A DNA stretch of 64,000 bases from Sulfurimonas sp. (GCF_041583195.1 NZ_JBFHGL010000001.1:62001-126000), one strand, 5' to 3'. Counted from the first letter of the stretch, positions 15,671 through 58,085 are shown. The notes: generated by a model not told the origin, from the sequence alone. Translations and numbers: made by a program.

Positions 15671-16090
15671 ATGTTATATTTAAGTATGAAGTTATTACAT
15701 ATATTCTCAGTTTTAATCTATGGAGGTTTTCTATTTACAGACAATCTAATTTTAATGAGAATGCAAAAGACTCTTTCTAAAAAAAAATATGAAGAAGTAA
15801 GAGCTTACTTTCAAGGTTTTACAAAATCTATAGTTCCCAAAGCTCTTATTACAGCAGTAATAAGTGGACTATATTTAATACATACGACTTTTGGTCCAAT
15901 AGCCGAGACAGGCTTATCAAATTTTCAAATTATACTCTCGATAAAAGCACTGTTAGGACTATGGCTTGGCTTAAGAGGGATACTGCAAGTGTTCTTCGGC
16001 ATACAGCCACTTATATTTAAAAGTCATAGATTACCATTTATATTGGTAATATTAATTATTTTACTCTCTCAAGTTATGTGGAGTGTTTGA
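15671..16090 (+). CDS. Small four-helix integral membrane protein (CopD/cytochrome-b-like)
   Basis: 139-aa hydrophobic protein with about four transmembrane segments. The first helix has LLHIFSVLIYGGFLFTDNLIL, a histidine in a helix-plus-GG pattern like CopD- or DUF-type haem-binding membrane proteins, and the third carries IILSIKALLGLWLGLRGI. I do not recognise a named family. GAAGGA ten bases upstream supports the ATG at 15671; an alternative ATG lies five codons in. It is divergent from the monohaem cytochrome across an FNR-like site, so a role in electron transfer or haem/copper handling is plausible. Confidence 0.65.
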   Translation: MLYLSMKLLHIFSVLIYGGFLFTDNLILMRMQKTLSKKKYEEVRAYFQGFTKSIVPKALITAVISGLYLIHTTFGPIAETGLSNFQIILSIKALLGLWLGLRGILQVFFGIQPLIFKSHRLPFILVILIILLSQVMWSV

Positions 16091-16118
16091 AAAATAGGAT
16101 ATTAAGACCCTATTTTTT
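16091..16118. terminator. Bidirectional intrinsic terminator
   Basis: AAAATAGG pairs with CCTATTTT around a ten-base loop, with A-rich and T-rich flanks on both sides (T6 on the forward strand). It separates the convergent membrane-protein gene and the cNMP-binding polyferredoxin gene, and its right arm includes the latter's stop codon. Confidence 0.65.
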
Positions 16119-18539
16119 ATTTTCTAAAAGTCTTAATGTCATCTCTTTCATCAAGCTAATACTGATTTCTGGATTATCTTTTATAAACGCTTTAAATTCT
16201 GTTGATGATAATCTTATAGTTTTTATCTCACTGTCTGCTATAACTGTAGCAGTCCTTGGTACATCAGCAATTATTGCTATCTCTCCAAAGTAACTTCCTT
16301 TTGAAAGTTTGGCTACTTCTTCATCATTTACAAGAACTCTTACAACACCGTCTAATAATATATATAGAGAATTAGAAATTTCACCTTGTACTAAGACAAC
16401 TTCTTCCTCTTTAAAATTTCTAGATTCTGCATGCTCGGCAAGATGTTTAAGTTCTCGAAATGTGATATTTGAAAAGAACGGTATCGTATGTAAATACATC
16501 ATTTGATCATACATTGTTATGACACCTGTGTTATTAAACACCTTATTATAAACATTTAATACATCTTCGCCATAGTTTTTAAACTTCTCAAACTTTGTAT
16601 CTTCAATTATGGAAGAATCATATTTCTTTAAATTCATTAGAGCAACTGTACTTAACTCTATAGAACTATTTTCTAACAACTGATTAACAATTTCTACATT
16701 ATTATTTTCATCTACAGTATATTTAGTATTTACTGCATTCACTAGTTTTAAAATAGCACTTAGTATAGCTTCATCCATAAAAGAGTATTCACTTTGTGTA
16801 TACTCTAAATTCAATTCTCCATTATGATATTTTAAAGTGTCTTTTAATGGTTTAAGCTCTTTAGAGTTCTTTTCATAAAGAATATTAAAGATTGTAAAAA
16901 GATCTTGAGAAATATTATTAAACTGATCTCTAATAGCAAATTTTAAAAAATTAATTTCGGCAGACTTATCATCATAAAGTTTTAAATTGCTTACAGCCAG
17001 TAGTTGCATCTCGTCTAAAATACTCATAACCTCTGCTTCAAGCTTATCGTTTGAATGCAATATGTCTTCTACTATTTTTTTATGATCTTCATTACTGATT
17101 TGAAACTGCTTTTGCAATGAATTTAAAATTTCATGGTCTAGTTCCAAGTGTTGACTTAAGATATCTTCTATCATTGTTTTGTAGGTCTGACGCTGATACC
17201 TACGAGTAGGTGATTTTTCTACATCCGCATTAAAAAGATCATCGTTTTCTAACCTGATCTCCCTAAATATATCCCAATGCTCTTTTTTCGAAATACCCAT
17301 ATTTTCACGAAGTTTCTCAAGAATTTCACTTCTGTCTTCGGTTAAGATTCCTTCCTGCATCAAGTCAATAAGACTATTCTTATACATTTTTCTTTTTTCT
17401 TCTTTATTCTGTTTCTCATTGGCATATGTATAATATATCTCTTTTAGATTTGTCGGTATAGGTTTATTTGAATCCCATTGTTTTATTAGTTTTAGAGCAA
17501 ATCTTTCTTGTATAAAGTAGTTCTCTTCTCTAAAAAATTCCTTGTATAAAATCACGGCCGATATTGCTACAACCATAAAATAAAAAACTGCATATGGTAT
17601 TGGATGCTCATTGTAAGCTGGTGCTCCTGCAAAAATATAAAAAATATTAAATGCTATAAATGCTGCAGAAACTCTCATTCTATGTAACAAAGTAGAATAT
17701 GTAATATTTTTACTAGAACTTCTTTTCCAAAAATACTTCTCTACGGCCTTAAAAATATAAAAGCTAGATAATGAAAATACTGCTAAAGTTATAGGTGCCG
17801 CAATAATTACAGGTATAGATGGAGCAAAGAAAAAACCTGTTGAAAACATTGAAACATCGTTATAAGCCCAAATGCCGGAAAAGTAATGTTCTAATGAACC
17901 AGTCTGAAAATAAAAATACAGATAAAAGCCTAAAACTAGACCGCTGAATGAATAAAAAACATAGTTTTTTTGCTCATTTAAAGCTTCTTTCCAATAACTG
18001 CTTTCCATATCGATATCTGGACAGTTCTTTTTACATCCACTACATTTTGAACATGCAGAGTTGTATTCATAATAGTGTGAATTTGAACCGCAGTATATTT
18101 TCTCAACAACACTAACTGGACAGAAAAAATTACACCAGCTTTTTCCCGCATAAACAAGATTGGTTAAAAATGCGAAAAGTATTACAAAAATAAAAAATAC
18201 TGCTAGATAAATATCATTAAAATTTAAGACAGTTAATCTTGCAGCAAAAGCAACAAAAAGTATAGAATATTGAAGGTAGTAAAAGTTTTTTTCAAACCAC
18301 TTAGGTAGTTTCTTTTTTTCTATCCAATTTAAATTTTGAGATATATTTGCTAAAAAAGCAAGTGGACATACTTTTCTCCATTTAGAATAACCAAATATTA
18401 AAAAAAGTACAGGCACTACAGGTACAAATACTGTCCAAACATATGAAGTAGAATGTTCTACAAAAAGCAATAGCAATAGTAGAGATACAAATACTACTAT
18501 TGCTGTAGACTTATATATGTTTATGGCATATTGGTTCAA
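16110..18539 (-). CDS. Membrane polyferredoxin fused to a cyclic-nucleotide-binding domain
   Basis: 809-aa protein joining three parts. Residues 1-360 are NapH/NosR/RdxA-like: several membrane helices with KVCPL (Cys58), CNFFCPVSVVEKIYC (Cys136, 140, 150) and a ferredoxin motif CSKCSGCKKNCPD (Cys163, 166, 169, 173). Residues about 370-680 are a long all-helical region. Residues about 690-800 are a cNMP-binding domain with FFSNITFRELKHLAEHAE, VVLVQGEISNSLYILLDG and the phosphate-binding cassette GSYFGEIAIIADVPRTATV. It likely moves electrons at the membrane under nucleotide or other ligand control. It is transcribed with the downstream side of the exported rhodanese (13-bp gap). The fusion is unusual. 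Confidence 0.8.
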   Translation of the reverse strand: MNQYAINIYKSTAIVVFVSLLLLLLFVEHSTSYVWTVFVPVVPVLFLIFGYSKWRKVCPLAFLANISQNLNWIEKKKLPKWFEKNFYYLQYSILFVAFAARLTVLNFNDIYLAVFFIFVILFAFLTNLVYAGKSWCNFFCPVSVVEKIYCGSNSHYYEYNSACSKCSGCKKNCPDIDMESSYWKEALNEQKNYVFYSFSGLVLGFYLYFYFQTGSLEHYFSGIWAYNDVSMFSTGFFFAPSIPVIIAAPITLAVFSLSSFYIFKAVEKYFWKRSSSKNITYSTLLHRMRVSAAFIAFNIFYIFAGAPAYNEHPIPYAVFYFMVVAISAVILYKEFFREENYFIQERFALKLIKQWDSNKPIPTNLKEIYYTYANEKQNKEEKRKMYKNSLIDLMQEGILTEDRSEILEKLRENMGISKKEHWDIFREIRLENDDLFNADVEKSPTRRYQRQTYKTMIEDILSQHLELDHEILNSLQKQFQISNEDHKKIVEDILHSNDKLEAEVMSILDEMQLLAVSNLKLYDDKSAEINFLKFAIRDQFNNISQDLFTIFNILYEKNSKELKPLKDTLKYHNGELNLEYTQSEYSFMDEAILSAILKLVNAVNTKYTVDENNNVEIVNQLLENSSIELSTVALMNLKKYDSSIIEDTKFEKFKNYGEDVLNVYNKVFNNTGVITMYDQMMYLHTIPFFSNITFRELKHLAEHAESRNFKEEEVVLVQGEISNSLYILLDGVVRVLVNDEEVAKLSKGSYFGEIAIIADVPRTATVIADSEIKTIRLSSTEFKAFIKDNPEISISLMKEMTLRLLENKK

Positions 18540-18552
18540 GGTATTCTACTTT

Positions 18553-19419
18553 TTAGATTTCTAGTGGCGTATCATCAAGATTACCCCACTCTCTCATAGA
18601 AGCATCATATATTTTTACATCTTTAAAATTAAGGTGCTGAGTAAGCAGATACCAGTTCATAGATGCTTCAAGTCCACCAGTACAGTATACTATTACTTCT
18701 TTGTTCGCATTTAATTTATTATCATCAATATATATTGCGTTTAGATCTTTGTCTTTTTTTACATTATATTCAGAATCAAACTTATCTCTCCAATAACTGC
18801 TTTTAGCTTTAGGAATGTGTCCTAACCTTTTAACACCTGAAGATTGTTTTTTCCCGTAAAAAAATTCACTTGGTCTAGCTTCAATCATACTTACTTTACC
18901 AATTTTGCTTAACACGTAGTCTTTATTGATCAAAACATTAGGGTTAAAACTAGCTTTAAAATCACCTTGATTGCACACTGTTTTCTCTGTAGAAACAAGT
19001 TCATCAAATTCAAATTTAGAAACCCAGTCTGGATAACCCCCATTTAGAATAGAGATATTTTTTAAACCGTGAGTTTTTAGTGCTAATGCCACATAACTCG
19101 CTTTTAAAAGATCTTTGTCTATGTTGTGACCATATATAACTACTTCAGAGTCATTATTAATCCCAAGACATTGGAAATATGCTTCTATCTCTTTAGGGGA
19201 GTTAATCAATTGATGTTTTCCAACCTTGTGTCTTAACTTCGAAGCTTCAACTCTTATAGCGCCTGGAATATGCCCTTGTTTATAAACTTCCTCTTTCGTC
19301 GTATCTAATATAACTAAATTTTTTGCACCTAACTTATCTTTAAGCTCTTCAGATGATATAAAAGCCTGACTAGAAAAAAGATAAGCAAAACCAAAAATTA
19401 AAGTAATAATTATTTTCAT
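18553..19419 (-). CDS. Exported two-domain rhodanese (thiosulfate sulfurtransferase-like)
   Basis: 288-aa protein with a signal peptide (MKIIITLIFGFAYLFSSQAF) and two rhodanese domains. The N-terminal domain (AKNLVILDTTKEEVYKQGHIPGAI...) lacks a clear catalytic cysteine loop (VVIYGHNIDKD), while the C-terminal domain has VIVYCTGGLEASMN with the active Cys246. This is the normal pattern of thiosulfate/mercaptopyruvate sulfurtransferases. An upstream in-frame ATG at 19467 would hide the signal peptide, so I chose 19419. It lies 13 bp before the polyferredoxin-cNMP gene, suggesting periplasmic sulfane-sulfur chemistry tied to that redox protein. Confidence 0.85.
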   Translation of the reverse strand: MKIIITLIFGFAYLFSSQAFISSEELKDKLGAKNLVILDTTKEEVYKQGHIPGAIRVEASKLRHKVGKHQLINSPKEIEAYFQCLGINNDSEVVIYGHNIDKDLLKASYVALALKTHGLKNISILNGGYPDWVSKFEFDELVSTEKTVCNQGDFKASFNPNVLINKDYVLSKIGKVSMIEARPSEFFYGKKQSSGVKRLGHIPKAKSSYWRDKFDSEYNVKKDKDLNAIYIDDNKLNANKEVIVYCTGGLEASMNWYLLTQHLNFKDVKIYDASMREWGNLDDTPLEI

Positions 19420-21320: not shown

Positions 21321-22157
21321 GTGAGTAAACCAGTTATTAAATGGGTTGGCGGTAAAAGACAGTTAATCAATGAATTAAAAAGTTTTTTACCTAAAAAATA
21401 TAATCGTTATTTTGAGCCCTTTATTGGTGGAGGTGCCCTGTTTTTTTCACTGAAACAGCATAACAGTTTCATAAGCGATTACAACCACGAACTTACAAAC
21501 CTTTACTCAACGATCAAAAACGATACCGACAAACTGATCAAAGATCTTAAAAAACATAAAAATACTGAAGAATATTATTATGAGATGAGAGCACTCGATC
21601 GAGATGAGAAAAAATATAAACGCCTCTCAAACGTACAAAAAGCCAGCAGATTTATCTACCTTAACAAAACAGGCTTCAACGGTTTATATAGAGTAAACAG
21701 TAAAGGTCAGCACAACGTTCCGTATGGAAAGTATAAAAACCCGACTTGGCTAGATGAAGAGAACTTAAAAGAATGCTCTAAACTACTTGCACATACAGAG
21801 ATCCAAACAGGTGATTTTGAAGTTGTAAAAGAACATGTTCAAAAAGGCGATTTTGTATATTTCGATCCGCCTTACGTACCGGTAAACAAAACATCTAGTT
21901 TTACCTCTTATACTGATCAGGGCTTTGATTCAAAGATGCAAGAGAGACTAAAAGAGCTGTGTGACTACATAGACTCAATTGGGGCTTACTTTATGCTTTC
22001 AAACTCATACACGGACTATATTTTAGATCTGTACAAAGATTATGATATAAAAACTGTTATGGCAACCAGAGCCGTTAACTCAAAAGCATCTGGAAGAGGA
22101 AAGATTAAAGAGGTTGTAGTACTAAACTATAAAGTTGACTCAGATGAGAAAAACTAA
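21321..22157 (+). CDS. D12-class N6-adenine DNA methyltransferase (Dam/DpnM type)
   Basis: 278-aa alpha-class adenine methyltransferase. The N-terminal PVIKWVGGKRQLINEL and YFEPFIGGGALFFSL form the S-adenosylmethionine site, and DFVYFDPPYVPV is the catalytic DPPY motif near residue 180; FTSYTDQGFD follows as in Dam and DpnM. The start is GTG with AAGG about ten bases upstream; the N-terminus M-S-K-P fits. Its end overlaps the start of a probable restriction endonuclease, so it is most likely the modification half of a type II system, with GATC or a related site as the expected but unproven target. Confidence 0.92.
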   Translation: MSKPVIKWVGGKRQLINELKSFLPKKYNRYFEPFIGGGALFFSLKQHNSFISDYNHELTNLYSTIKNDTDKLIKDLKKHKNTEEYYYEMRALDRDEKKYKRLSNVQKASRFIYLNKTGFNGLYRVNSKGQHNVPYGKYKNPTWLDEENLKECSKLLAHTEIQTGDFEVVKEHVQKGDFVYFDPPYVPVNKTSSFTSYTDQGFDSKMQERLKELCDYIDSIGAYFMLSNSYTDYILDLYKDYDIKTVMATRAVNSKASGRGKIKEVVVLNYKVDSDEKN

Positions 22158-23370
22158 AGTAAGTACCAATGAGTCTTGGGTCAATATATTTGACAAGTAC
22201 GACATTTTAAATACAGTTAGTTCTAAAGGTTATGCAGATATTACAGCTGATCAGATAAAAGCAGTTGATGGCAAAGAAGCCCGTTTAATGACGAAGGTGG
22301 ATTTTAGAGAAAACCTGCCAACAATAATGAAAGAAAACTCTCTCTCAATTCTTGCTATTAAAAACGGTCTATACAGAATTGCTAAAAACGATCCATTTAT
22401 TGATATTAATGAGAAAATATCTACAAAAATAATAGAGATTGAACCTCCATGTGATATAACTTCAATAGATCCGTTTAACATTAAAAGTGAAAGTGCAGCA
22501 CTAGACATAGCCTACATATCTAAGATGTGTGAACAAGTGTTCAATGAAGAGAGTTTTTTAAGTATACGTGGGCGTTTGCGAGGAGAGTTAGCGTTTGATT
22601 TAGATTCCATTCCGTACAATATAGACGGCGTTCAGATCGAAGTTGACGGAGGTTATGAAGGTAACGAGAGCATACACCTCATAGAAGCAAAAATAGGTTT
22701 TAGAAATAACATAAACATAAGACAACTATTATATCCGCAGCTTTACTGGGAAAAAGAGCTTAATGGTTCAAAAAAAATAAAAAGCTATATATTTTATCTA
22801 CATAACAATATTTTTAGATTTATTCCTTATATTTATGATGGGAAAATAGGTTATGCTGATCACGCAGAGGAGAAAGCTTTCAAGTTTGTGGAAAAAGCTT
22901 CTAAGTTCAGCATCTATGATGTAGAAATAGATGATAGTTTAGTAGATAGCAGTGTACCTTTTCCTCAAGCTGATAAGTTTGAAAAAATACAAGATATGTT
23001 GTTTGTAATATCTCAAAATGAGTGTACAAACAAGTATGAATTAAATTTGGAATTTGACATAGTTTCACGTCAGATTGATTACTATCTAAATGTTTTAAAA
23101 TGGCTAAAAGTTTGTAAGGAAGAAGGCGAATGCATTGTACTTACACAAAAAGGTAAAGAGATAATTGATATGCCTTTTAAAAAGCGGTTACAAGAGCTCT
23201 CTAAGATTGTATTTTCAGAACCTATAGCGAACAACTTTTTACATAAAAAAGAGATAAGCGATCAAATGTTTGGCAAATATAATATGAACAGCCAAAGTAC
23301 CCAGCGCAGAAGGCTTCAAACTATAAGTGCTTGGATAAATTACTTTGAAGATATTTTAGAGTTAAAATAA
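22144..23370 (+). CDS. Probable type II restriction endonuclease
   Basis: 408-aa protein overlapping the methylase gene by 14 bases. The centre holds a likely PD-(D/E)xK nuclease core: IRGRLRGELAFDLDSI, then IEVDGGYEGNESIHLIEAKIGF (acidic residue followed by ExK). The C-terminal part contains a winged-helix-like segment (YYLNVLKWLKVCKEEGECIVLTQKGKEI) and an STQRRRLQTISAWINYFEDI motif that I associate with restriction-enzyme families paired with D12 methylases. The ATG at 22144 is chosen; a TTG lies three codons earlier. Identification rests on the methylase neighbour plus motif, not on a named homologue. The site cut is unknown. Confidence 0.75.
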   Translation: MRKTKVSTNESWVNIFDKYDILNTVSSKGYADITADQIKAVDGKEARLMTKVDFRENLPTIMKENSLSILAIKNGLYRIAKNDPFIDINEKISTKIIEIEPPCDITSIDPFNIKSESAALDIAYISKMCEQVFNEESFLSIRGRLRGELAFDLDSIPYNIDGVQIEVDGGYEGNESIHLIEAKIGFRNNINIRQLLYPQLYWEKELNGSKKIKSYIFYLHNNIFRFIPYIYDGKIGYADHAEEKAFKFVEKASKFSIYDVEIDDSLVDSSVPFPQADKFEKIQDMLFVISQNECTNKYELNLEFDIVSRQIDYYLNVLKWLKVCKEEGECIVLTQKGKEIIDMPFKKRLQELSKIVFSEPIANNFLHKKEISDQMFGKYNMNSQSTQRRRLQTISAWINYFEDILELK

Positions 23371-23660: not shown

Positions 23661-24083
23661 GTGATTAATAAAAAGATTGTTGGCAAAAAAGAGTGTATTT
23701 CTATTATAGACTTGGATCTTTATAATTTAGATGCAAAAGTTGACACGGGAGCAGATTCAAATGCCCTACATTGTGATGACATTTTTATAGATGATGAAAA
23801 CAATGTACACTTCAAACTTCTTGATGAAGTCCATGAAGCTTATCATGGTCGTAAAATGATCATGCCTCTGTATAAAGTCAAAAAAGTTAGAAGTTCAAAC
23901 GGTGAACTACAGATACGTCCTTCAATAAAAGTTAGTGTTGAATTTTTCGGTAAAAAATATAAAACAATTATTTCATTAACCAATCGCGCTGATATGAAAT
24001 ATCCTATGCTAATAGGAAGAAAGTTTTTAAACGGTAAATTTTTAGTTGACGTATCTCAAGAATATATTGCAAAAGGAGAATAA
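23661..24083 (+). CDS. RimK-associated retropepsin-like protease ('ATP-dependent zinc protease' family)
   Basis: 140-aa single-domain aspartyl-protease-like protein. The catalytic motif is in LDAKVDTGADSNALHC, and later RADMKYPMLIGRKFLNGKFLVDVS matches the second conserved block of the family, often misnamed ATP-dependent zinc protease. Members usually sit next to RimK-type ligases and are thought to cleave or process the tailed product. The start is GTG with GGAG eight bases upstream. The stop is immediately followed by the rimK ATG, so the two are coupled. Confidence 0.85.
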   Translation: MINKKIVGKKECISIIDLDLYNLDAKVDTGADSNALHCDDIFIDDENNVHFKLLDEVHEAYHGRKMIMPLYKVKKVRSSNGELQIRPSIKVSVEFFGKKYKTIISLTNRADMKYPMLIGRKFLNGKFLVDVSQEYIAKGE

Positions 24084-25013
24084 ATGAGAGTCTATATACT
24101 GTCAAGAAATGCAGATCTTTACTCTACAAAAAGACTAGTTGAAGCAGGACAAGAGAAAGGTTGGGAGATTGAAGTAATCGATTATCTAAAATGCTCTATT
24201 GAGATCATGAAGGGTGAGTTAAAAGTTAACTACAAAGGTAAGGAATTACCTACTCCAGATGCAATTATTCCTAGAATCGGTGCAAGTCGTACATTTTACG
24301 GTACTGCGATGGTTAGACACTTTGAGATGATGGAAGTTTTTTCTACATCTGGTAACCTAGCTATAAAAAGAAGTAGAGACAAACTAAGAAGTCTTCAGGT
24401 TCTTTCAAAATTTGGTGTAGACATGCCAAAAACTGTTTTTGCATCTAATAAATCAAGTGCGAAAGATGTTATAGCACTAAGTGGAGGGACCCCTTTAGTT
24501 TTAAAAATCTTAGAAGGTACTCAAGGTGTGGGTGTAGTTTTAGTAGACACTCAAAAAGCTGCAAAATCTGTACTTGATGCGTTTTACGGGATGGATGTAA
24601 ACTTACTTGTTCAAGAGTTCATTGAAGAAGCAGGCGGAGCTGACATTCGTGCACTTGTAGTAGGCGGTGAAGTAGTTGGTGCTATGAAGCGTCAAGGTGC
24701 TGAAGGTGATTTTAGATCAAACCTTCACCAAGGCGGAAGTGCTACGGCTCATAAGCTATCTCGCAAAGAGAAATCAACTGCACTGGCGGCGGCAAAAGCT
24801 ATGGGACTTGGTGTATGTGGTGTTGATATGATCCCATCAAAACGCGGTCCACTTGTTATGGAAGTTAACTCATCTCCTGGTTTAGAGGGGATTGAAAAAT
24901 CTACCGGTATCGATATAGCGGGCAAAATAATGGACTATATAGAAAAAAATGTAACTCCTAAATCTGATACGAAGAAAAAAAGAAGAATTAAAAGAGATAA
25001 CATAGGAGCATAA
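24084..25013 (+). CDS. rimK: RimK-type alpha-L-glutamate ligase (ATP-grasp)
   Basis: 309-aa ATP-grasp ligase. It opens [21 protein letters not shown], has the family block [13 protein letters not shown], then ATP-grasp elements [48 protein letters not shown] and [20 protein letters not shown] with metal-binding Glu/Asn. RimK adds glutamates to the C-terminus of ribosomal protein S6 in E. coli and makes poly-glutamate; relatives act on other substrates. A lysine/arginine-rich tail ([14 protein letters not shown]) follows. It lies directly between the retropepsin-like protease and two aspartoacylase-like genes, with no gaps. Confidence 0.93.
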
Positions 25014-26063
25014 ATGGGCGCTGAGAAGTTCATTATAGGTGGTAGTGAGATTCCAAAAGGAACAAACACTATCATAAACATAGATCTTCCAAAACTTTAT
25101 AATACACCTACTCAACTACCTGTAAGAATTATACGCGGTAAAAGAAACGGCCCTACTGTTTTTATTAGTGCCGCTATACATGGAGATGAACTTAACGGTA
25201 TAGAGATCATTAGACGTCTTAGAAAACTGAATATTCTTAAAAAACTAAAAGGCACTCTTATTTTAGTTCCTGTCGTTAACGTTTACGGAATGATGAATCT
25301 TTCTCGTTACTTACCAGATCGACGTGATCTAAACAGAAGTTTTCCTGGTAGTTCAAAAGGCTCTCTTGCAAGCCGTGTCGCAAAAATATTTTTTGATGAA
25401 ATAGTAAGTAAATGTGATTTGGGAATTGATCTTCACACTGCATCTATACATAAGTCAAACCTTCCGCAGATCAGAACAAATATAAAAGATGAGAACACTT
25501 TCAGACTTGCAAAAGCTTTTGAAGCACCTGTAGTTCTACATTCTGAACTAAGAGACGGTTCACTTCGTGCAACCTCTCAGGAGATGGGTGTCCCAATCCT
25601 TCTTTATGAAGCTGGAGAAGCACTCAGATTTGATGAAAAAAGTATACGTATTGGAGTTAAAGGGATCGTCAATGTACTACGTGCAAATGAGATGCTTCCT
25701 AAATCAACACATAGAAGAGCCGTAAAAATTCCAATCATCTCAAAAGAAAGCAGATGGATACGCTCTGTCGAGAGTGGGATGTTAAGAACCATAAAAGCTC
25801 TTGGAGATACTGTTGAACAAGATGAAGTGATAGCCTATATCGATGAACCATTAGGCGATAACAGTTTTGGAATACTATCTCCTTTTGATGGAATTATTAT
25901 AGGAAAATCTGAGATTCCGCTTATCCAAGAAGGAGATGCCGTATTTCATATAGCTAAATTTAAAAACCTTGATTTAGCCGATAATAAAATGGAATACTTT
26001 GCAGAAGATGCTATTGAGCAAAGCGAATTTCACGAACTCAACAATGAAGAGATAATCGAGTAA
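25014..26063 (+). CDS. Succinylglutamate desuccinylase/aspartoacylase-family hydrolase, cytoplasmic copy
   Basis: 349-aa zinc carboxypeptidase-like amidohydrolase. Zinc ligands are in AAIHGDELNGIEIIRRL (His, Glu) and GIDLHTASIHKSN (second His), with RDLNRSFPGSSKGSLASR providing substrate-binding arginines, and a C-terminal biotinyl/lipoyl-like beta region (ALGDTVEQDEVIAYIDEPLG). No signal peptide is visible. Family members remove acyl groups from amino acids such as N-succinylglutamate or N-acetylaspartate. The gene abuts rimK and is followed two bases later by a close paralogue, so it likely hydrolyses an amide or peptide linked to the RimK product. Confidence 0.88.
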   Translation: MGAEKFIIGGSEIPKGTNTIINIDLPKLYNTPTQLPVRIIRGKRNGPTVFISAAIHGDELNGIEIIRRLRKLNILKKLKGTLILVPVVNVYGMMNLSRYLPDRRDLNRSFPGSSKGSLASRVAKIFFDEIVSKCDLGIDLHTASIHKSNLPQIRTNIKDENTFRLAKAFEAPVVLHSELRDGSLRATSQEMGVPILLYEAGEALRFDEKSIRIGVKGIVNVLRANEMLPKSTHRRAVKIPIISKESRWIRSVESGMLRTIKALGDTVEQDEVIAYIDEPLGDNSFGILSPFDGIIIGKSEIPLIQEGDAVFHIAKFKNLDLADNKMEYFAEDAIEQSEFHELNNEEIIE

Positions 26064-26065
26064 CT

Positions 26066-27166
26066 ATGAAAACACTGCTGTCATTACTTCTTTTATCGAC
26101 ACTACTTTTTTCACAAACTGATAAAAAGCTGACACTTGGTGGTGTTGATATAAAAAAAGGTAGTAATGTCACTATAAATATTGAGCTTCCAAATCTTTAT
26201 AACACTCCTACAACTATGCCGGTTTTGGTTATGAGGGGAAAACATGAAGGCCCTGTTGTTTTTATATGTGCAGCCGTACATGGAGATGAGCTAAACGGTA
26301 TAGAGATCATCAGAAGATTTCGCCAGTTAGATATTTTAAAAAAACTAAGAGGGACTGTAATACTGGTACCTATAGTTAATATATACGGGGTTATGAATCT
26401 ATCGCGTTATCTGCCAGACAGACGTGATTTAAATAGACATTTCCCAGGTTCTACTCACGGTTCACTTGCATCAAGAATGGCTGATCTTTTTTTAAATGAG
26501 ATTGTAAAAAAATCTGATTTAGGAATCGACCTTCATACTGCATCTATTCATAAATCAAACCTTCCGCAGATCAGAACAAATATAAAAAATCCATACACTC
26601 TAAAGCTTGCAAAAGCTTTTGAAGCTCCTGTTATTCTACACTCCGAGATAAGAGACGGCTCACTTCGATCAGCTTCTCAGGATATGGGTGTACCAATACT
26701 TTTGTATGAAGCGGGCGAAGCACTTAGATTTGATGAGCAAAGTATTCGAATAGGTGTAAAAGGCCTAGTAAATGTTTTAAGAACTAATAAGATGCTTCCA
26801 AAACTACAAAAAAAACAAAAAGCTAAAAAACTACCAATCATAGTAAGAAGCAGTAGCTGGCTGCGTGCATCACAAAGCGGAGTAATCAGAACTATAAAAG
26901 GTCTTGGAGACACCGTCAAAAAAGGTGAGATTATTGCATATATAAACGAGCCTCTAAATGACAAAAGCCATAAACTACAAGCTCCATATGATGGTATAAT
27001 AATTGGTAAATCAGAGATACCGCTAATTCAAGAAGGCGATGCAGTTTTTCATATAGCAAACTTTAAAAAGCTATCACTTGCCGAGAAAAAGATACTTTAC
27101 TTTTGTGAAGATGCACTTGAAAACTGTGAGTTTATTGATTTTAATGATGAGGAGATTATTGAATGA
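26066..27166 (+). CDS. Exported aspartoacylase-family hydrolase, paralogue of upstream gene
   Basis: 366-aa paralogue of the preceding gene, alike almost end to end (AAVHGDELNGIEIIRRF, RDLNRHFPGSTHGSLASR, LGIDLHTASIHKSNLPQIR). The difference is an added N-terminus MKTLLSLLLLSTLLFSQTDKK, a good signal peptide. The two copies therefore probably do the same chemistry on different sides of the inner membrane. The start codon follows the upstream stop by two bases and its stop overlaps the MscS ATG by four bases. Zinc ligands appear intact. Confidence 0.87.
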   Translation: MKTLLSLLLLSTLLFSQTDKKLTLGGVDIKKGSNVTINIELPNLYNTPTTMPVLVMRGKHEGPVVFICAAVHGDELNGIEIIRRFRQLDILKKLRGTVILVPIVNIYGVMNLSRYLPDRRDLNRHFPGSTHGSLASRMADLFLNEIVKKSDLGIDLHTASIHKSNLPQIRTNIKNPYTLKLAKAFEAPVILHSEIRDGSLRSASQDMGVPILLYEAGEALRFDEQSIRIGVKGLVNVLRTNKMLPKLQKKQKAKKLPIIVRSSSWLRASQSGVIRTIKGLGDTVKKGEIIAYINEPLNDKSHKLQAPYDGIIIGKSEIPLIQEGDAVFHIANFKKLSLAEKKILYFCEDALENCEFIDFNDEEIIE

Positions 27167-53120: not shown

Positions 53121-53150
53121 TTAAAAATCAAAGGATTAACCTTTGATTTT
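53121..53150 (-). terminator. Terminator at the end of the molybdoenzyme operon
   Basis: On the reverse strand AAAATCAAAGG pairs with CCTTTGATTTT (11 bp) around a short loop that includes the stop codon at 53136-53138, and is followed by TTTTT. The last coding codons form the left arm. Confidence 0.7.
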
Positions 53151-56100
53151 AACTTTGTATGCTTTATCAGATAATGGCACCCACGGACGTTTAATGTGCT
53201 GTGGACGACGTAGTGTATCTTTTTCATTTAGAGGACGAGTTAAATCATCTCTCCAACCTTTGTAAATTTTGAAGTTGTTTTCATAATTTACATAGATATC
53301 ACCAATTTTGTCACCTGCTTGAGATGGCTCAAGGATAACTTTTTGGTGCCAACAGTGCATACCAGAAATTGGATCCGGGTGAGCTGCAGCTACAGCATTT
53401 TGCCATGAACCACTTAGACCATCCCACCAGATGTTTCCACTGTCACGGTTGTATTCAGCAAATCTCTCAGAGTGGAAAGGTGTAATTCCCTTAGTATATT
53501 TAAGTTTACCCTCTTTACCATCCATAGATAATTCAGCAGTTGGAACACCGAAGCTATTTAAGCCACTTGTTCCATCATAGTCTTCGATCTTAATTTGTGC
53601 ACCTACAGCACCTGCATTCTCAGGTGAATGTGCCATAAACTTAGGATCAGTCATATCACGTGGCATTGGCTGAGAATCAACTTTACCATCAGTTACACCA
53701 TTTGGAATAGTTACTGAGTTAACAAGTTTCCATCTACCACCGTGGTGTGAACAAGCTAGAGTACCAGGAAGAACACCTTCAGTAGGTACAGCCATAGCTA
53801 CAAAGTAACCAGACTCTAATCCTGTTACAGAATCCACGATTCTAACACGGATAGCATCACCACGTTTGAAACCTTGACGCTTAGCATCACCAGTTGAGAT
53901 CCAGATTGGATCGTGGTTTTGTGAAATCTCCATTAAGTGCTTAGAGTTCGCAGAACGTGTATGGATATTGTACGGTAAACGGAATACTGTATTTAATGCA
54001 TACGAGTTCTTCTCAGTCATATAAGAGTGATCTACATGAGATACGATGTGTTTCATCTCTTTTTTCTCTTTTGGAGTTCTAGGATAGAAAGGTACTGCAT
54101 ATTCTGGCCATTTCCAATCATCAGCTAACCACTCACAGAAGAAGTCAAGTTTCTTATCTAGTGTTGCGAAACCTTCCATTTTCTTACCATCTATCTCAAT
54201 ACCGATAGATTTTTTCTTACCATGAGATTCAGCTGTCATAACACCTGTACGTTTATTAATATGTACATGTTTTTTCTCATATTTATGACCGTGTGAGATA
54301 TAGTGTGTACTAGTCTCTTTGATCTCTTTTTCTTGTGCAGAATAGATATTATTCTCTTCCATCCAAGCACCATGTTCTCTCATATACTCATATACAGGGA
54401 ACTCTGCATTTTTGTATCTTGAATCAGCTGTTGCTGTAGCTTTAAGATTTGGTAAGTTATCACCAAATGCAGCATCATACCACTCAGAAATTGTAACAGG
54501 TTTACCTGGGTTCTTTTTAGATTCCCACATTTTCTTGATACCAAGTTTTCCAGTAGGATCAATATAGTTAACACACATATCAAACCAGAACTCATTCTCT
54601 TCCCATACTTCACCAAGACCAGCTTTGATATGAGCTTCAAGAGTAGCACGGTTAGGGTTTTTAGGTTTCCATCCAGCTTTCTCTAATGCTACACGCATAA
54701 CAGGCTGACGGAAAGATGTCCAACGTGCCGGCATTGTAGCTTCAGAGTGTTGATCGTGACGCTCACCAGCTAAACCAACAGGAAGAACATAATCAACATA
54801 CCAGTTAGTCTCAGACCATACAGGTGAAAGGTTAAATGTAAGTTCCATTTTCTTTTCATCTTTGATCGTATCGATCCATCTGAAACCATCTGGGTTAATC
54901 CAAACTGGGTTATACATACGAGGAATCCATACAGACAGTTTTTCAGGTACATTTAGACCTTTAGCCTGCCATTTTTTCTGCCACTCAGTATCCGCTAATA
55001 AGTGTGGTAATAGGTATGACAACTCATAAGTTGACAATGGCCATTCTGGCGGCCAAGTAAGTTCATTATAAACATCAACTTTAGGGATGTTAGAACCACG
55101 TTTACCTTGACCAACAGTTGCAGAACCACCTTTACCAGCTACAGAAATAACATGGAAGTGGTGGAAGAAAGTACCACCCTCAGGTCCGATTGCACCACGA
55201 AGTGCTAATGGTAAGAAACCTGTACGACCACTCATCCATCCACCACGGTTACCAGCTGCAGTTGCACGCCAGAAATAAGTAGAGATTGAACTACCAGCCC
55301 AAATGAACATGTCATATAATTCTTCTAGTTTATATGCAGGAACGTGAGTCTCTTTAGATACATGCTCTAAAGTATACGGTTGATACATCTCAGTTATAGT
55401 ATCTAAGAATGCGTCAAAAGTGTTTTTCTTAGGAGCTTTTTTGATATAACCTTTTTCTACCATAAATTTAAGGTAGTCTTTGTTATCCATCATAACTTCC
55501 CAGTTTAGCCATTTCTTAACGAAATCTTTATCTACTTTCTTCTCATTTAAAATTCTTTGAGCTAAGTATAGATAAATTAAAGGCTCAGTACCAGGCCATG
55601 CAGCGATCCACATATCAGCCATACCGGCAGAGTTAGACATACGTGGATCCATAACTACAAGTTTTGCACCCTTAGCTCTTGCATCTGCAATAAACGAAGC
55701 TGATTGTTGGAAGTAGTGACCAGCATCAGCAGCGTGAGATGAGTTAAGGAAAATAAGCTTAGCGTTAGCCCAATCCGGAGAACTTCTATCATCATTCGCC
55801 CATTGGATAGTTGGAGTACGACCACCAGATGAACAGATGTTAGTGTGTGAGTTAAATGCATCACAACCAAGTGTATGCCAAACTTTACCTGTGAAACCGT
55901 TCTCATTTGGACGACCAACGTGGAACATTACAGTTTTCTTAGATAACTCATCACCTTTAGCTAGTGTATCTCCCATTTTCTTACCAATAGCAGTCATAGC
56001 TTCATCCCAAGTAGTACGAACCCACTTACCTTCACCACGAGCAGAACCTGCAGCACGCTTAAGTGGGAATGCTATACGGTCTGGATCATACATTTGAGAT

Positions 56101-56528
56101 TGTGTAGCATAACCTTTTGCACAGTTACGACCACGAGAAGCTGGGTGTAATGGGTTACCCATATACTTTTTAACTGTAAAAGTTTTCTTATCAATCCAAG
56201 CTGTTAAACCACAAGAAGCCTCACAGTTTGAACAAGCAGTAGGTACGATAGTGTAATCGTGAGCTTCAATACCATCCGGATTTGATTCACTCTTAACACC
56301 GTGACGTTCAATACCACCACGTTTCCAGTCTTGTCCACTTAACTCAGAAAAGTTTTCCCACTCTTCCATCGGTGGGTAAAACGATAATGAATCTGGAGTA
56401 TTTGTAAATTTAGAGTCTTTTACTGACTCAGCAACTGCATCAGTTGTAAATACACCTTTTGCAATAGCGGCACCTGCAACAGTAAATGCAGCGCCTTTTA
56501 AAAATGTTCTTCTACTTTGTAAATACAT
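53136..56528 (-). CDS. Molybdopterin oxidoreductase catalytic subunit (DMSO-reductase superfamily), Tat-exported
   Basis: 1130-aa catalytic subunit of an exported molybdoenzyme. The N-terminus has a Tat signal (SRRTFLKGAAF) and a [4Fe-4S] motif of Cys at about 95-135 (ACSNCEASCGL ... GRNCAKG). The Mo-ligand region is NICSSGGRTP, with cysteine as the probable ligand, and repeated bis-MGD motifs follow (VMDPRMSN, WMSGRTGFLP, THSRSANSKHL-like DHxP near the C-terminus). It is much longer than PsrA (about 770) and close to TtrA or SoeA, so sulfur oxyanion or tetrathionate chemistry is possible but not proved. It follows NrfD-type and Fe-S genes on the same strand. Confidence 0.85.
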   Translation of the reverse strand: MYLQSRRTFLKGAAFTVAGAAIAKGVFTTDAVAESVKDSKFTNTPDSLSFYPPMEEWENFSELSGQDWKRGGIERHGVKSESNPDGIEAHDYTIVPTACSNCEASCGLTAWIDKKTFTVKKYMGNPLHPASRGRNCAKGYATQSQMYDPDRIAFPLKRAAGSARGEGKWVRTTWDEAMTAIGKKMGDTLAKGDELSKKTVMFHVGRPNENGFTGKVWHTLGCDAFNSHTNICSSGGRTPTIQWANDDRSSPDWANAKLIFLNSSHAADAGHYFQQSASFIADARAKGAKLVVMDPRMSNSAGMADMWIAAWPGTEPLIYLYLAQRILNEKKVDKDFVKKWLNWEVMMDNKDYLKFMVEKGYIKKAPKKNTFDAFLDTITEMYQPYTLEHVSKETHVPAYKLEELYDMFIWAGSSISTYFWRATAAGNRGGWMSGRTGFLPLALRGAIGPEGGTFFHHFHVISVAGKGGSATVGQGKRGSNIPKVDVYNELTWPPEWPLSTYELSYLLPHLLADTEWQKKWQAKGLNVPEKLSVWIPRMYNPVWINPDGFRWIDTIKDEKKMELTFNLSPVWSETNWYVDYVLPVGLAGERHDQHSEATMPARWTSFRQPVMRVALEKAGWKPKNPNRATLEAHIKAGLGEVWEENEFWFDMCVNYIDPTGKLGIKKMWESKKNPGKPVTISEWYDAAFGDNLPNLKATATADSRYKNAEFPVYEYMREHGAWMEENNIYSAQEKEIKETSTHYISHGHKYEKKHVHINKRTGVMTAESHGKKKSIGIEIDGKKMEGFATLDKKLDFFCEWLADDWKWPEYAVPFYPRTPKEKKEMKHIVSHVDHSYMTEKNSYALNTVFRLPYNIHTRSANSKHLMEISQNHDPIWISTGDAKRQGFKRGDAIRVRIVDSVTGLESGYFVAMAVPTEGVLPGTLACSHHGGRWKLVNSVTIPNGVTDGKVDSQPMPRDMTDPKFMAHSPENAGAVGAQIKIEDYDGTSGLNSFGVPTAELSMDGKEGKLKYTKGITPFHSERFAEYNRDSGNIWWDGLSGSWQNAVAAAHPDPISGMHCWHQKVILEPSQAGDKIGDIYVNYENNFKIYKGWRDDLTRPLNEKDTLRRPQHIKRPWVPLSDKAYKVKIKG

Positions 56529-56541
56529 TAATATATTCTCC

Positions 56542-57447
56542 TTAACTCATTGGTAATAATTGTGGAATCATTAGCCAAACATGTTTAACTACCCACAGAC
56601 CTGCTATTGCTAAAATCGCAGCAAGTTTTAAAATACTAGCACTATTGTTAGTTCTAGCTAATAGAATTAGACCCATTGGGATTAAGTATGCAACCCATTG
56701 ACCTAACCAGAACATTACAGTATATGGACCATCACCTTTGATGTATTCAAGTACTGCAGCAACTTCTTCTGCTTTCATTGGTCCGAAGATATACTCTGCC
56801 ATATACATTGTGAAAGACATAAATGCACTTAAACCTAAAACAGCGCCTAAAGTTCTTTGAGCTTTTTCATCTAACTTGCTTCCGCCAAGTAAGATCATAG
56901 TTGCAGAACCAGCAAGTAATGCAGCTAAGATCATTTGAGCAGTTTCAGTTGGCATTTGCCATAATTCACGTGCAGTACATTGACTCATTAGTGCTGCTGT
57001 ATACATTGTTACAGGTATAGCTAAAATAACTACAGGAGTTAACCATTTATCAAACGCTGCATTGTCTTTTTTGATAAAAGAAAAGTATGCAAGTAAAAAT
57101 AGTAAACCAACAAAAATAGTAGCCATCCATGCACCAATAGTAATTGCCGATGTTACGTGTGGATAGAAAAAGATATGCCACATTCTAAACGGTTGGTGTA
57201 GATCTGCTAGTGTAAATAATAAGAATATATGTATAAATATAATTGACACTAAAGTAGTTGAAAATCTTAAATCTTTAGCTGATTCAGGGTGTTTTCTTAA
57301 AAGTAAGAAAAGCATAAAAATAACACCTGTACCGATAGATTTTGCCCACATATTAACCGTAACAAGCCAAGGCCAAACTGTACCAGGGATAGCTACATCT
57401 AAAGTAACTACAGCATTAGTCGCTGCTAAAATTTCATGTGCTGCCAT
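56542..57447 (-). CDS. NrfD-family membrane subunit
   Basis: 301-aa integral membrane quinone-binding anchor of the complex iron-sulfur molybdoenzyme family. Eight predicted helices are visible, starting with WPWLVTVNMWAKSIGTGVIFMLFLL, with LADLHQPFRMWHIFFYPHVTSAI carrying charged residues typical of NrfD/PsrC, and CTARELWQMPTETAQMILA. It lies between the Fe-S subunit (overlapping by one base) and the catalytic subunit, 13 bp from the latter, and should pass electrons between the quinone pool and the Fe-S subunit. Confidence 0.88.
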   Translation of the reverse strand: MAAHEILAATNAVVTLDVAIPGTVWPWLVTVNMWAKSIGTGVIFMLFLLLRKHPESAKDLRFSTTLVSIIFIHIFLLFTLADLHQPFRMWHIFFYPHVTSAITIGAWMATIFVGLLFLLAYFSFIKKDNAAFDKWLTPVVILAIPVTMYTAALMSQCTARELWQMPTETAQMILAALLAGSATMILLGGSKLDEKAQRTLGAVLGLSAFMSFTMYMAEYIFGPMKAEEVAAVLEYIKGDGPYTVMFWLGQWVAYLIPMGLILLARTNNSASILKLAAILAIAGLWVVKHVWLMIPQLLPMS

Positions 57448-58085
57448 TAGTGGTGACCTCCTACTGGTAATGTTGTAATCTTGTTAAATAAAGAATGTCC
57501 ATCAACTCTATGAGAAGCTAAAGGATTTAAGTTTACATTTCCTCCACTTGTGTAGTAGTGGTGAGGGTTAGTACCTTTTTCAGGTTTTCTAACTTGTACG
57601 TTACTTTGGTTTTTACTTATATATTGAGAAATATTTGATGTTGGATCATCTAAATCACCAAAAATATTAGCTTGAACAGGACATGCTACAACACACGCTG
57701 GCATCATTGAAGAAGCTACACGGTGAGCACAGTATGTACACTTATCTGCTGTTTGTGTTTGAGGATCTATGTAGATAGCTCCATACGGACAAGCCATAAC
57801 ACAACCAGCACAACCTATACAACGCTCTTTATCGATATTTACAATACCGTTTTCTAAGTAATGTAAAGCAGATACCGGACAAATTCTTTCACACGGTGCA
57901 TTTTCACAATGGTTACATCTAAGAGGTGTAAAAGTTCTCTTTGTTTCAGGAAAAGTTCCAACATCTACATATTTAACACGAAGTCTCCATGTACTTAGTG
58001 GAACTTCATTTTCCACTTTACATGCGATTTCACAGCCTTTACATCCCATACAAAGATGTAAATCAACTAGAAAGCCTAATTGCAT
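57447..58085 (-). CDS. Four-cluster ferredoxin subunit of molybdoenzyme (NrfC/PsrB/TtrB-like)
   Basis: 212-aa electron-transfer subunit with four [4Fe-4S] cysteine groups: CMGCKGCEIACK, RCNHCENAPCERICP, ERCIGCAGCVMACPYGA and KCTYCAHR...CVVACP. No own Tat signal is seen, as is common when the subunit is carried in by the catalytic partner. The stretch VQVRKPEKGTNPHHYYTSGG after the last cluster resembles the tail of sulfite/tetrathionate-type partners. It is first of three co-directional genes (Fe-S, NrfD, catalytic), the order found in ttrBCA. Confidence 0.9.
   Translation of the reverse strand: MQLGFLVDLHLCMGCKGCEIACKVENEVPLSTWRLRVKYVDVGTFPETKRTFTPLRCNHCENAPCERICPVSALHYLENGIVNIDKERCIGCAGCVMACPYGAIYIDPQTQTADKCTYCAHRVASSMMPACVVACPVQANIFGDLDDPTSNISQYISKNQSNVQVRKPEKGTNPHHYYTSGGNVNLNPLASHRVDGHSLFNKITTLPVGGHH

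Follow-up and report, generated by a model that had tools for sequence, protein, structure and literature searches.

Cyclic nucleotide-binding (cNMP) domains of bacteria are mostly familiar as parts of transcription factors and channels. Among membrane iron-sulfur proteins, the membrane domain of the NapH/NosR/RdhC modules has been proposed to oxidise quinol and to pass electrons to a periplasmic partner, and NosR-type proteins were formerly considered regulators (PMC5928378). CcoG, a membrane iron-sulfur protein that faces the cytoplasm, is a reported cupric reductase (PMC8267372). Rhodanese-related sulfurtransferases are enriched in vent strains, where their role was suggested by analogy only (PMC7952632), and the Wolinella enzyme of this type, as cited in the same paper, is a polysulfide-sulfur transferase at low polysulfide. 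The locus described here, from a widespread group of marine sulfur oxidisers, encodes a membrane protein of the electron-transfer type with a cNMP domain attached, beside the gene for an exported rhodanese. The locus lies in a 64,000-nucleotide stretch of Sulfurimonas DNA, hereafter the window.

Anatomy of the two proteins

The two ORFs occupy positions 16110–19419 on the minus strand, in agreement with a preliminary description of this DNA that had recognised a polyferredoxin-type protein and an exported rhodanese. The rhodanese gene comes first and the iron-sulfur gene follows 13 bp downstream. Confidence in the anatomy of both proteins and in their pairing is high, and the evidence for them is solid.

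18553..19419, minus strand: exported tandem rhodanese, 288 aa (Pfam PF00581 twice, 15-member alignment, structure profile matches)
16110..18539, minus strand: membrane iron-sulfur protein with cNMP-binding C-terminus, 809 aa, TTG start
17505..18539, minus strand: its membrane domain, residues 1–345, eight predicted transmembrane helices, both ends cytoplasmic (alignments, hydropathy and charge)
16500..17504, minus strand: its helical linker, residues 346–680, ENT-like/HEAT-like repeats, predicted cytoplasmic (Pfam, profile, AlphaFold)
16113..16502, minus strand: its cNMP-binding domain, residues 680–809, cassette FGEIAIIADVPRTAT with Glu753 and Arg762 (Pfam, AlphaFold)

The TTG at 18539 that starts the 809-aa ORF aligns with the starts of relatives in a 13-sequence alignment. 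The automatic call extends the rhodanese ORF to 19467; the relatives in the 15-member alignment favour the ATG at 19419, which is therefore the better end coordinate. Promoter and terminator scans around the pair gave signals no better than shuffled sequence, so that the argument for co-transcription comes from gene spacing. Sulfurimonas supplies the closest named relatives of the iron-sulfur gene, and no second full-length copy of the protein was found in its own 2.38-Mb genome. A small DUF2269-like membrane protein gene (window 15671–16090) faces the iron-sulfur gene in convergent orientation across 19 bp and is not conserved at this position in other loci. Elsewhere in the window, reading by eye identified an adenine-specific DNA methylase-like gene with a putative restriction endonuclease gene after it (21321–23370), a group of RimK-like ATP-grasp, small aspartyl-protease-like, and two succinylglutamate-desuccinylase-like genes (23661–27166), and a polysulfide-reductase-like operon encoding a molybdopterin enzyme, an NrfD-like membrane subunit, and an iron-sulfur subunit (53136–58085).

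The membrane domain contains seven cysteines (C58, C136, C140, C163, C166, C169, and C173) that are invariant in 13 full-length sequences, which are 41–54% identical to the window copy, and that all stay invariant after cyanobacterial and rhizobial relatives are added (16-sequence alignment). Their arrangement comprises C58-P only at the first site, a CX3CP motif at 136–141, and a single CxxCxxCxxxCP at 163–174. Lys and Arg residues number 7, 7, and 4 in the cytoplasmic loops and 0 in the periplasmic loops, as judged from hydropathy and charge, and the Cys motifs, linker, and cNMP domain are therefore all predicted to be cytoplasmic. The longest predicted periplasmic loop spans ~28 residues. 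A short periplasmic motif, YYFSGxW, is also conserved in relatives that lack a rhodanese and would therefore serve the core function rather than the rhodanese partnership. Mean identity to the window copy is highest in the membrane/iron-sulfur part (0.58–0.62), compared with 0.28–0.47 in the linker, whose second half is lowest (0.28), and 0.38 in the cNMP domain.

NapH proper was ruled out by scores far under the cut-offs (NCBIfam TIGR02163, NapH type, 21.0 bits against 213; NF007013, 18.6 bits against 234) and by the lack of two CX3CP and two 4Fe-4S motifs, and NosR or RdhC proper by the lack of a periplasmic FMN-binding domain; a Pfam scan found no FMN-binding domain anywhere in the protein. 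Nor was a site for heme, FMN/flavin, or another recognised membrane-bridging cofactor found in it. The earlier label of a NapH/NosR-like polyferredoxin thus needs narrowing: the protein is a NapH-superfamily-like membrane iron-sulfur protein that is not NapH or NosR by the features tested, and the term polyferredoxin is generous for one complete CxxCxxCxxxC plus C58 and CxxxCP. The structure model of the membrane domain is of low confidence (pLDDT <50 within the full length and ~59 alone, from an alignment of 6–7 sequences), and Foldseek and VIA-align searches with this low-confidence model returned no meaningful match, a result that says nothing about the fold.

The rhodanese begins with a signal-peptide-like segment of the Sec type, which predicts export, and contains two rhodanese stretches (PF00581, E 3.8e-29). 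The N-terminal domain is without a catalytic Cys, and the C-terminal domain carries the active-site loop CTGGLEAS with Cys246, so that it shares with tandem sulfurtransferases two rhodanese domains and a catalytic Cys in the second. CTGGLEAS is found at a single place in the window and in 0 of 100 shuffles. By profile match, the nearest solved structures are thiosulfate/3-mercaptopyruvate sulfurtransferases (1uar and 1urh), and the score against the NCBIfam 3-mercaptopyruvate sulfurtransferase family is 96.9 bits, below the cut-off of 250. A role for the rhodanese in building iron-sulfur clusters was rejected, as the rhodanese is exported and the clusters are predicted to be cytoplasmic.

The linker and cNMP tail

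The long helical linker and the intact-looking cNMP cassette noted in the preliminary description were both borne out. In the linker, a Pfam ENT match reaches 26 bits, slightly below the cut-off, and the first 500 residues, searched as a profile, match the helical repeats of Tic110 (E 9e-5). The AlphaFold model of the 809-aa protein, with its low-confidence membrane domain, is confident only for residues ~500–800, which form helical repeats (pLDDT mostly 72–93 across residues 500–680) and then a cNMP fold. Pfam places cNMP_binding (PF00027) at residues 707–789 with an E-value of 5.7e-16 and 58.7 bits against a gathering cut-off of 27.5. All top solved-structure matches for the iron-sulfur protein are cNMP domains of the PKG/PKA/HCN type; the modelled domain matches PKA/PKG/HCN CNB domains (e.g., 5l0n, TMt 0.83, rmsd 2.4), and the matches of the modelled tail include cNMP-bound structures.

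The phosphate-binding cassette of the window copy, FGEIAIIADVPRTAT (FGEIA...PRTA), has both the Gly-Glu and the Arg, and this form is canonical for cAMP/cGMP binding in CNB domains. From these residues, the window copy is likely to bind nucleotide. In 14 Sulfurimonas copies, Arg762 is invariant and the Glu is replaced in six, by Ala in G042 and G005 and by Asp in G059, L035, L036, and L037; among cyanobacterial relatives, the Kovacikia cassette is canonical and those of Leptolyngbya and Synechocystis 6714 are lost. Nucleotide binding is not family-wide, because the Glu is replaced in 6/14 copies and the cassette is gone in these two cyanobacterial tails. The genome of the window strain encodes two class III cyclases, in which adenylyl cyclase residues, read by eye, lie behind CHASE2-like regions. 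Across 60 genomes of the genus, a class III cyclase is present in 8 of the 10 carriers of the iron-sulfur gene (G014, which holds the tail only, being left out of this set) and in 24 of the 50 non-carriers (two-sided p 0.09), a weak association that is suggestive at most of a link.

Relatives with the same domain order exist outside Sulfurimonas, so the cNMP fusion, earlier called rare, is not unique. Searches of plasmids by tblastn, through which Cyanobacteria and Pseudomonadota were sampled, revealed the membrane-linker-cNMP order in three cyanobacteria (WP_198808586.1 of Leptolyngbya, WP_028946478.1 of Synechocystis 6714, and Kovacikia minuta plasmid pA) and a membrane-linker-FHA order on Agrobacterium and Rhizobium plasmids (WP_121652064.1 and WP_196776341.1). 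Many Rhizobium plasmids have a gene for just the membrane domain. The FHA-tailed rhizobial genes adjoin genes for cytochrome c peroxidase and a hybrid-cluster NAD(P) oxidoreductase, and no rhodanese neighbour was found at the annotated cyanobacterial and rhizobial plasmid loci. Among 397 Campylobacterota and 148 Bacteroidota genomes, only distant relatives of the membrane domain alone were found outside Sulfurimonas, and viral contigs and PHROGs yielded none. The open-access literature searched gave no description of the membrane iron-sulfur/linker/cNMP architecture or of the two-gene module. The part that is specific to Sulfurimonas is the combination of the tailed protein with a dedicated exported rhodanese. 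One distant membrane-domain-only relative, in G372, is flanked by genes for a cytochrome c peroxidase-like protein, a two-haem cytochrome c, and a Crp-like protein (L070 6099–9860).

The Sulfurimonas-type genome G014 encodes the linker and cNMP tail as a protein of its own, 377 aa long and with a canonical cassette; its gene lies downstream of that for a Na+/H+ antiporter (PF03553), 37 bp away (L107 349–2860). The existence of this free-standing tail, together with tailed proteins elsewhere, therefore indicates that the tail is a portable regulatory module. Reading by eye also identified a Sulfurimonas RND/MMPL-transporter-like protein with a C-terminal cNMP domain (L108 3461–6190) and an ABC-exporter-like protein with two such domains at its N-terminus (L109 1106–4126).

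Pairing across Sulfurimonas

The full iron-sulfur protein is encoded in 10 of the 60 genus genomes. At all 16 Sulfurimonas-type loci with both sides present, a rhodanese gene lies directly upstream, and in 15 of them, the window included, the two genes are on the same strand at spacings of -56 to +31 bp; the 16th is the second pair in the L033 genome. The upstream partners are all rhodaneses of one wider clade. The G040 pair is interrupted by a contig end, yet is consistent with pairing. An apparently split gene in G044 was rejected as a contig break, and L038, a sequence labelled Flavobacteriaceae with 66% identity, is probably Sulfurimonas contamination. The pair occupies at least four genomic settings: beside phoX and tmRNA in the window; after trxA, a 163-aa gene of no Pfam family, and trxB, and before dapB; between Mla and chorismate mutase genes and the ribosomal operon; and that of L033, the genome in which it occurs twice. 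The pair is a real, conserved two-gene module, and its recurrence at 16 loci in several contexts supports the functional link to the rhodanese that had been suggested from adjacency in the window.

Many Sulfurimonas contain an unpaired rhodanese, and in G027 the rhodanese gene lies between trxB and dapB, where the iron-sulfur gene is absent. No iron-sulfur gene was found without a rhodanese among Sulfurimonas loci with upstream DNA, which makes the dependency one-way. The pairwise distances of one protein correlate with those of the other (r 0.70, permutation p 5e-5), and the gene trees partly disagree, the window grouping with G008 for the rhodanese and with L033 for the iron-sulfur protein; this incomplete agreement implies that some exchange has occurred.

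In the second domain, C246-T-G-G-L-E is invariant in 15/15 aligned paired rhodaneses. The catalytic Cys is lost in all six unpaired rhodaneses of the sister clade, which include the second copy in the window strain's own genome and mostly adjoin chorismate mutase genes; it is retained in deeper unpaired relatives and in the lone G027 copy. Its retention in paired copies fits, as an indication rather than proof, a requirement of the pair for sulfurtransferase chemistry. The second, Cys-less rhodanese of this genome (L081 6365–7219; C4:170364–171182) lies beside chorismate mutase and Mla-type genes, a neighbourhood in which Cys-less rhodaneses recur in several Sulfurimonas. In G044, the pair adjoins a second, resident rhodanese of the Cys-less kind.

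Possible roles and known systems

In the best reading of the module, which is put forward tentatively, electrons would be exchanged with sulfane sulfur bound to the rhodanese, in a quinone-linked step under cNMP regulation. This reading starts from direct observations: both proteins with their domains, their conserved pairing, the retained catalytic Cys, the topology as predicted, a cassette of canonical form, and the two cyclases. By analogy with related families, the catalytic Cys of the exported rhodanese would load sulfane sulfur in the periplasm, from thiosulfate, polysulfide, or a similar source, as a persulfide. The cytoplasm-facing clusters of the inner-membrane protein would pass electrons to or from the menaquinone pool or a cytoplasmic carrier, and this protein would serve as the redox partner of the rhodanese, converting persulfide to sulfide or accepting electrons as the sulfur moves on. 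The cassette motif further suggests that the linker and cNMP domain may sense a cyclic nucleotide, probably cAMP in the window strain, and switch the conduit. Conservation of the seven cysteines even in cyanobacterial and rhizobial relatives counts in favour of this reading, as do the free tail beside the G014 antiporter, which is expected of a portable regulator, and the precedents of the NapH membrane domain and the Wolinella transferase. Against this reading, the electron path from cytoplasmic clusters to a periplasmic rhodanese is unexplained, since no bridging cofactor was recognised; rhodanese chemistry requires no redox partner; and the rhodanese persists in G027 without the iron-sulfur gene.

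A stricter version, a cAMP-gated respiratory conduit that connects the quinone pool with rhodanese-held sulfane sulfur only when the cytoplasmic cyclic-nucleotide level allows, is unlikely. If it were true, a second messenger would directly control a sulfur electron-transfer step, not transcription; more generally, if gating is real, cyclic nucleotides would act straight on sulfur redox flow. Regardless of gating, the conserved pair offers a concrete handle on the role of exported Sulfurimonas rhodaneses.

The same features could describe a signalling device, in which redox or quinone state is read by the membrane domain and cAMP by the cNMP domain, and the helical tail relays the combined signal to a cytoplasmic partner, with sulfane sulfur of the rhodanese as the input. 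Such a role would suit a large, helical, interaction-type tail that alternates between cNMP and FHA among relatives and stands free next to the antiporter in G014, and it recalls the regulatory role once attributed to NosR-type proteins (PMC5928378). It is nevertheless doubtful, because the protein is without a DNA-binding or output enzyme domain and is best conserved in its membrane domain (identities given above), a pattern that resembles a catalytic core with a regulatory tail. A role in assembly or repair is also unlikely: a CcoG-like reductase would help to mature a metalloenzyme of the periplasm or membrane, such as a copper oxidase or molybdenum enzyme, while the rhodanese supplied or protected its sulfur. 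The cytoplasm-facing cupric reductase CcoG (PMC8267372) and the cytochrome c peroxidase and hybrid-cluster neighbours of the FHA-tailed rhizobial relatives speak for it, but a conserved metalloenzyme neighbour occurs at 0 Sulfurimonas loci, where neighbours vary or are trxA/trxB, dapB, or ribosomal genes. Finally, the two genes might be independent members of one operon, the rhodanese alone detoxifying cyanide or polysulfide and the pairing being inherited linkage, as the lone rhodaneses of many Sulfurimonas, and of G027 at the same locus, would allow. Adjacency in at least four settings and twice in one genome, an iron-sulfur gene never met without a rhodanese, and a G044 pair located beside a second, Cys-less resident make this improbable.

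Among the closest known systems are the cyanobacterial 4Fe-4S/cNMP proteins: they share the membrane iron-sulfur domain, a linker with weak HEAT matches, and the C-terminal cNMP domain, in the same order, and the seven Cys, but are 27–31% identical over the first 500 residues, are without a rhodanese neighbour at the two annotated loci, and have lost the cassette in two of three cases. The rhizobial 4Fe-4S proteins share the membrane domain and the first part of the linker, with its ENT-like match, and differ in that FHA replaces cNMP and the neighbours are not rhodaneses. Like the NapH/NosR/RdhC modules, the window protein has a multi-helix membrane domain with Cys motifs that include CX3CP; unlike them, it has one complete CX3CP, one CxxCxxCxxxC, and no FMN domain. 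CcoG is likened to it as a functional analogue only. NTT-HEAT-cNBD transporters also combine a membrane protein, helical repeats, and a cNMP domain, sometimes with a separate downstream cNBD gene, but in them the membrane part transports nucleotides and has no relation to that of the window protein (PMC5381601). The rhodanese resembles SseA/YnjE-type tandem sulfurtransferases in its two rhodanese domains with the active Cys in the second, and it is distinguished from them by its export, its CTGGLEAS loop, and its pairing with an iron-sulfur protein.
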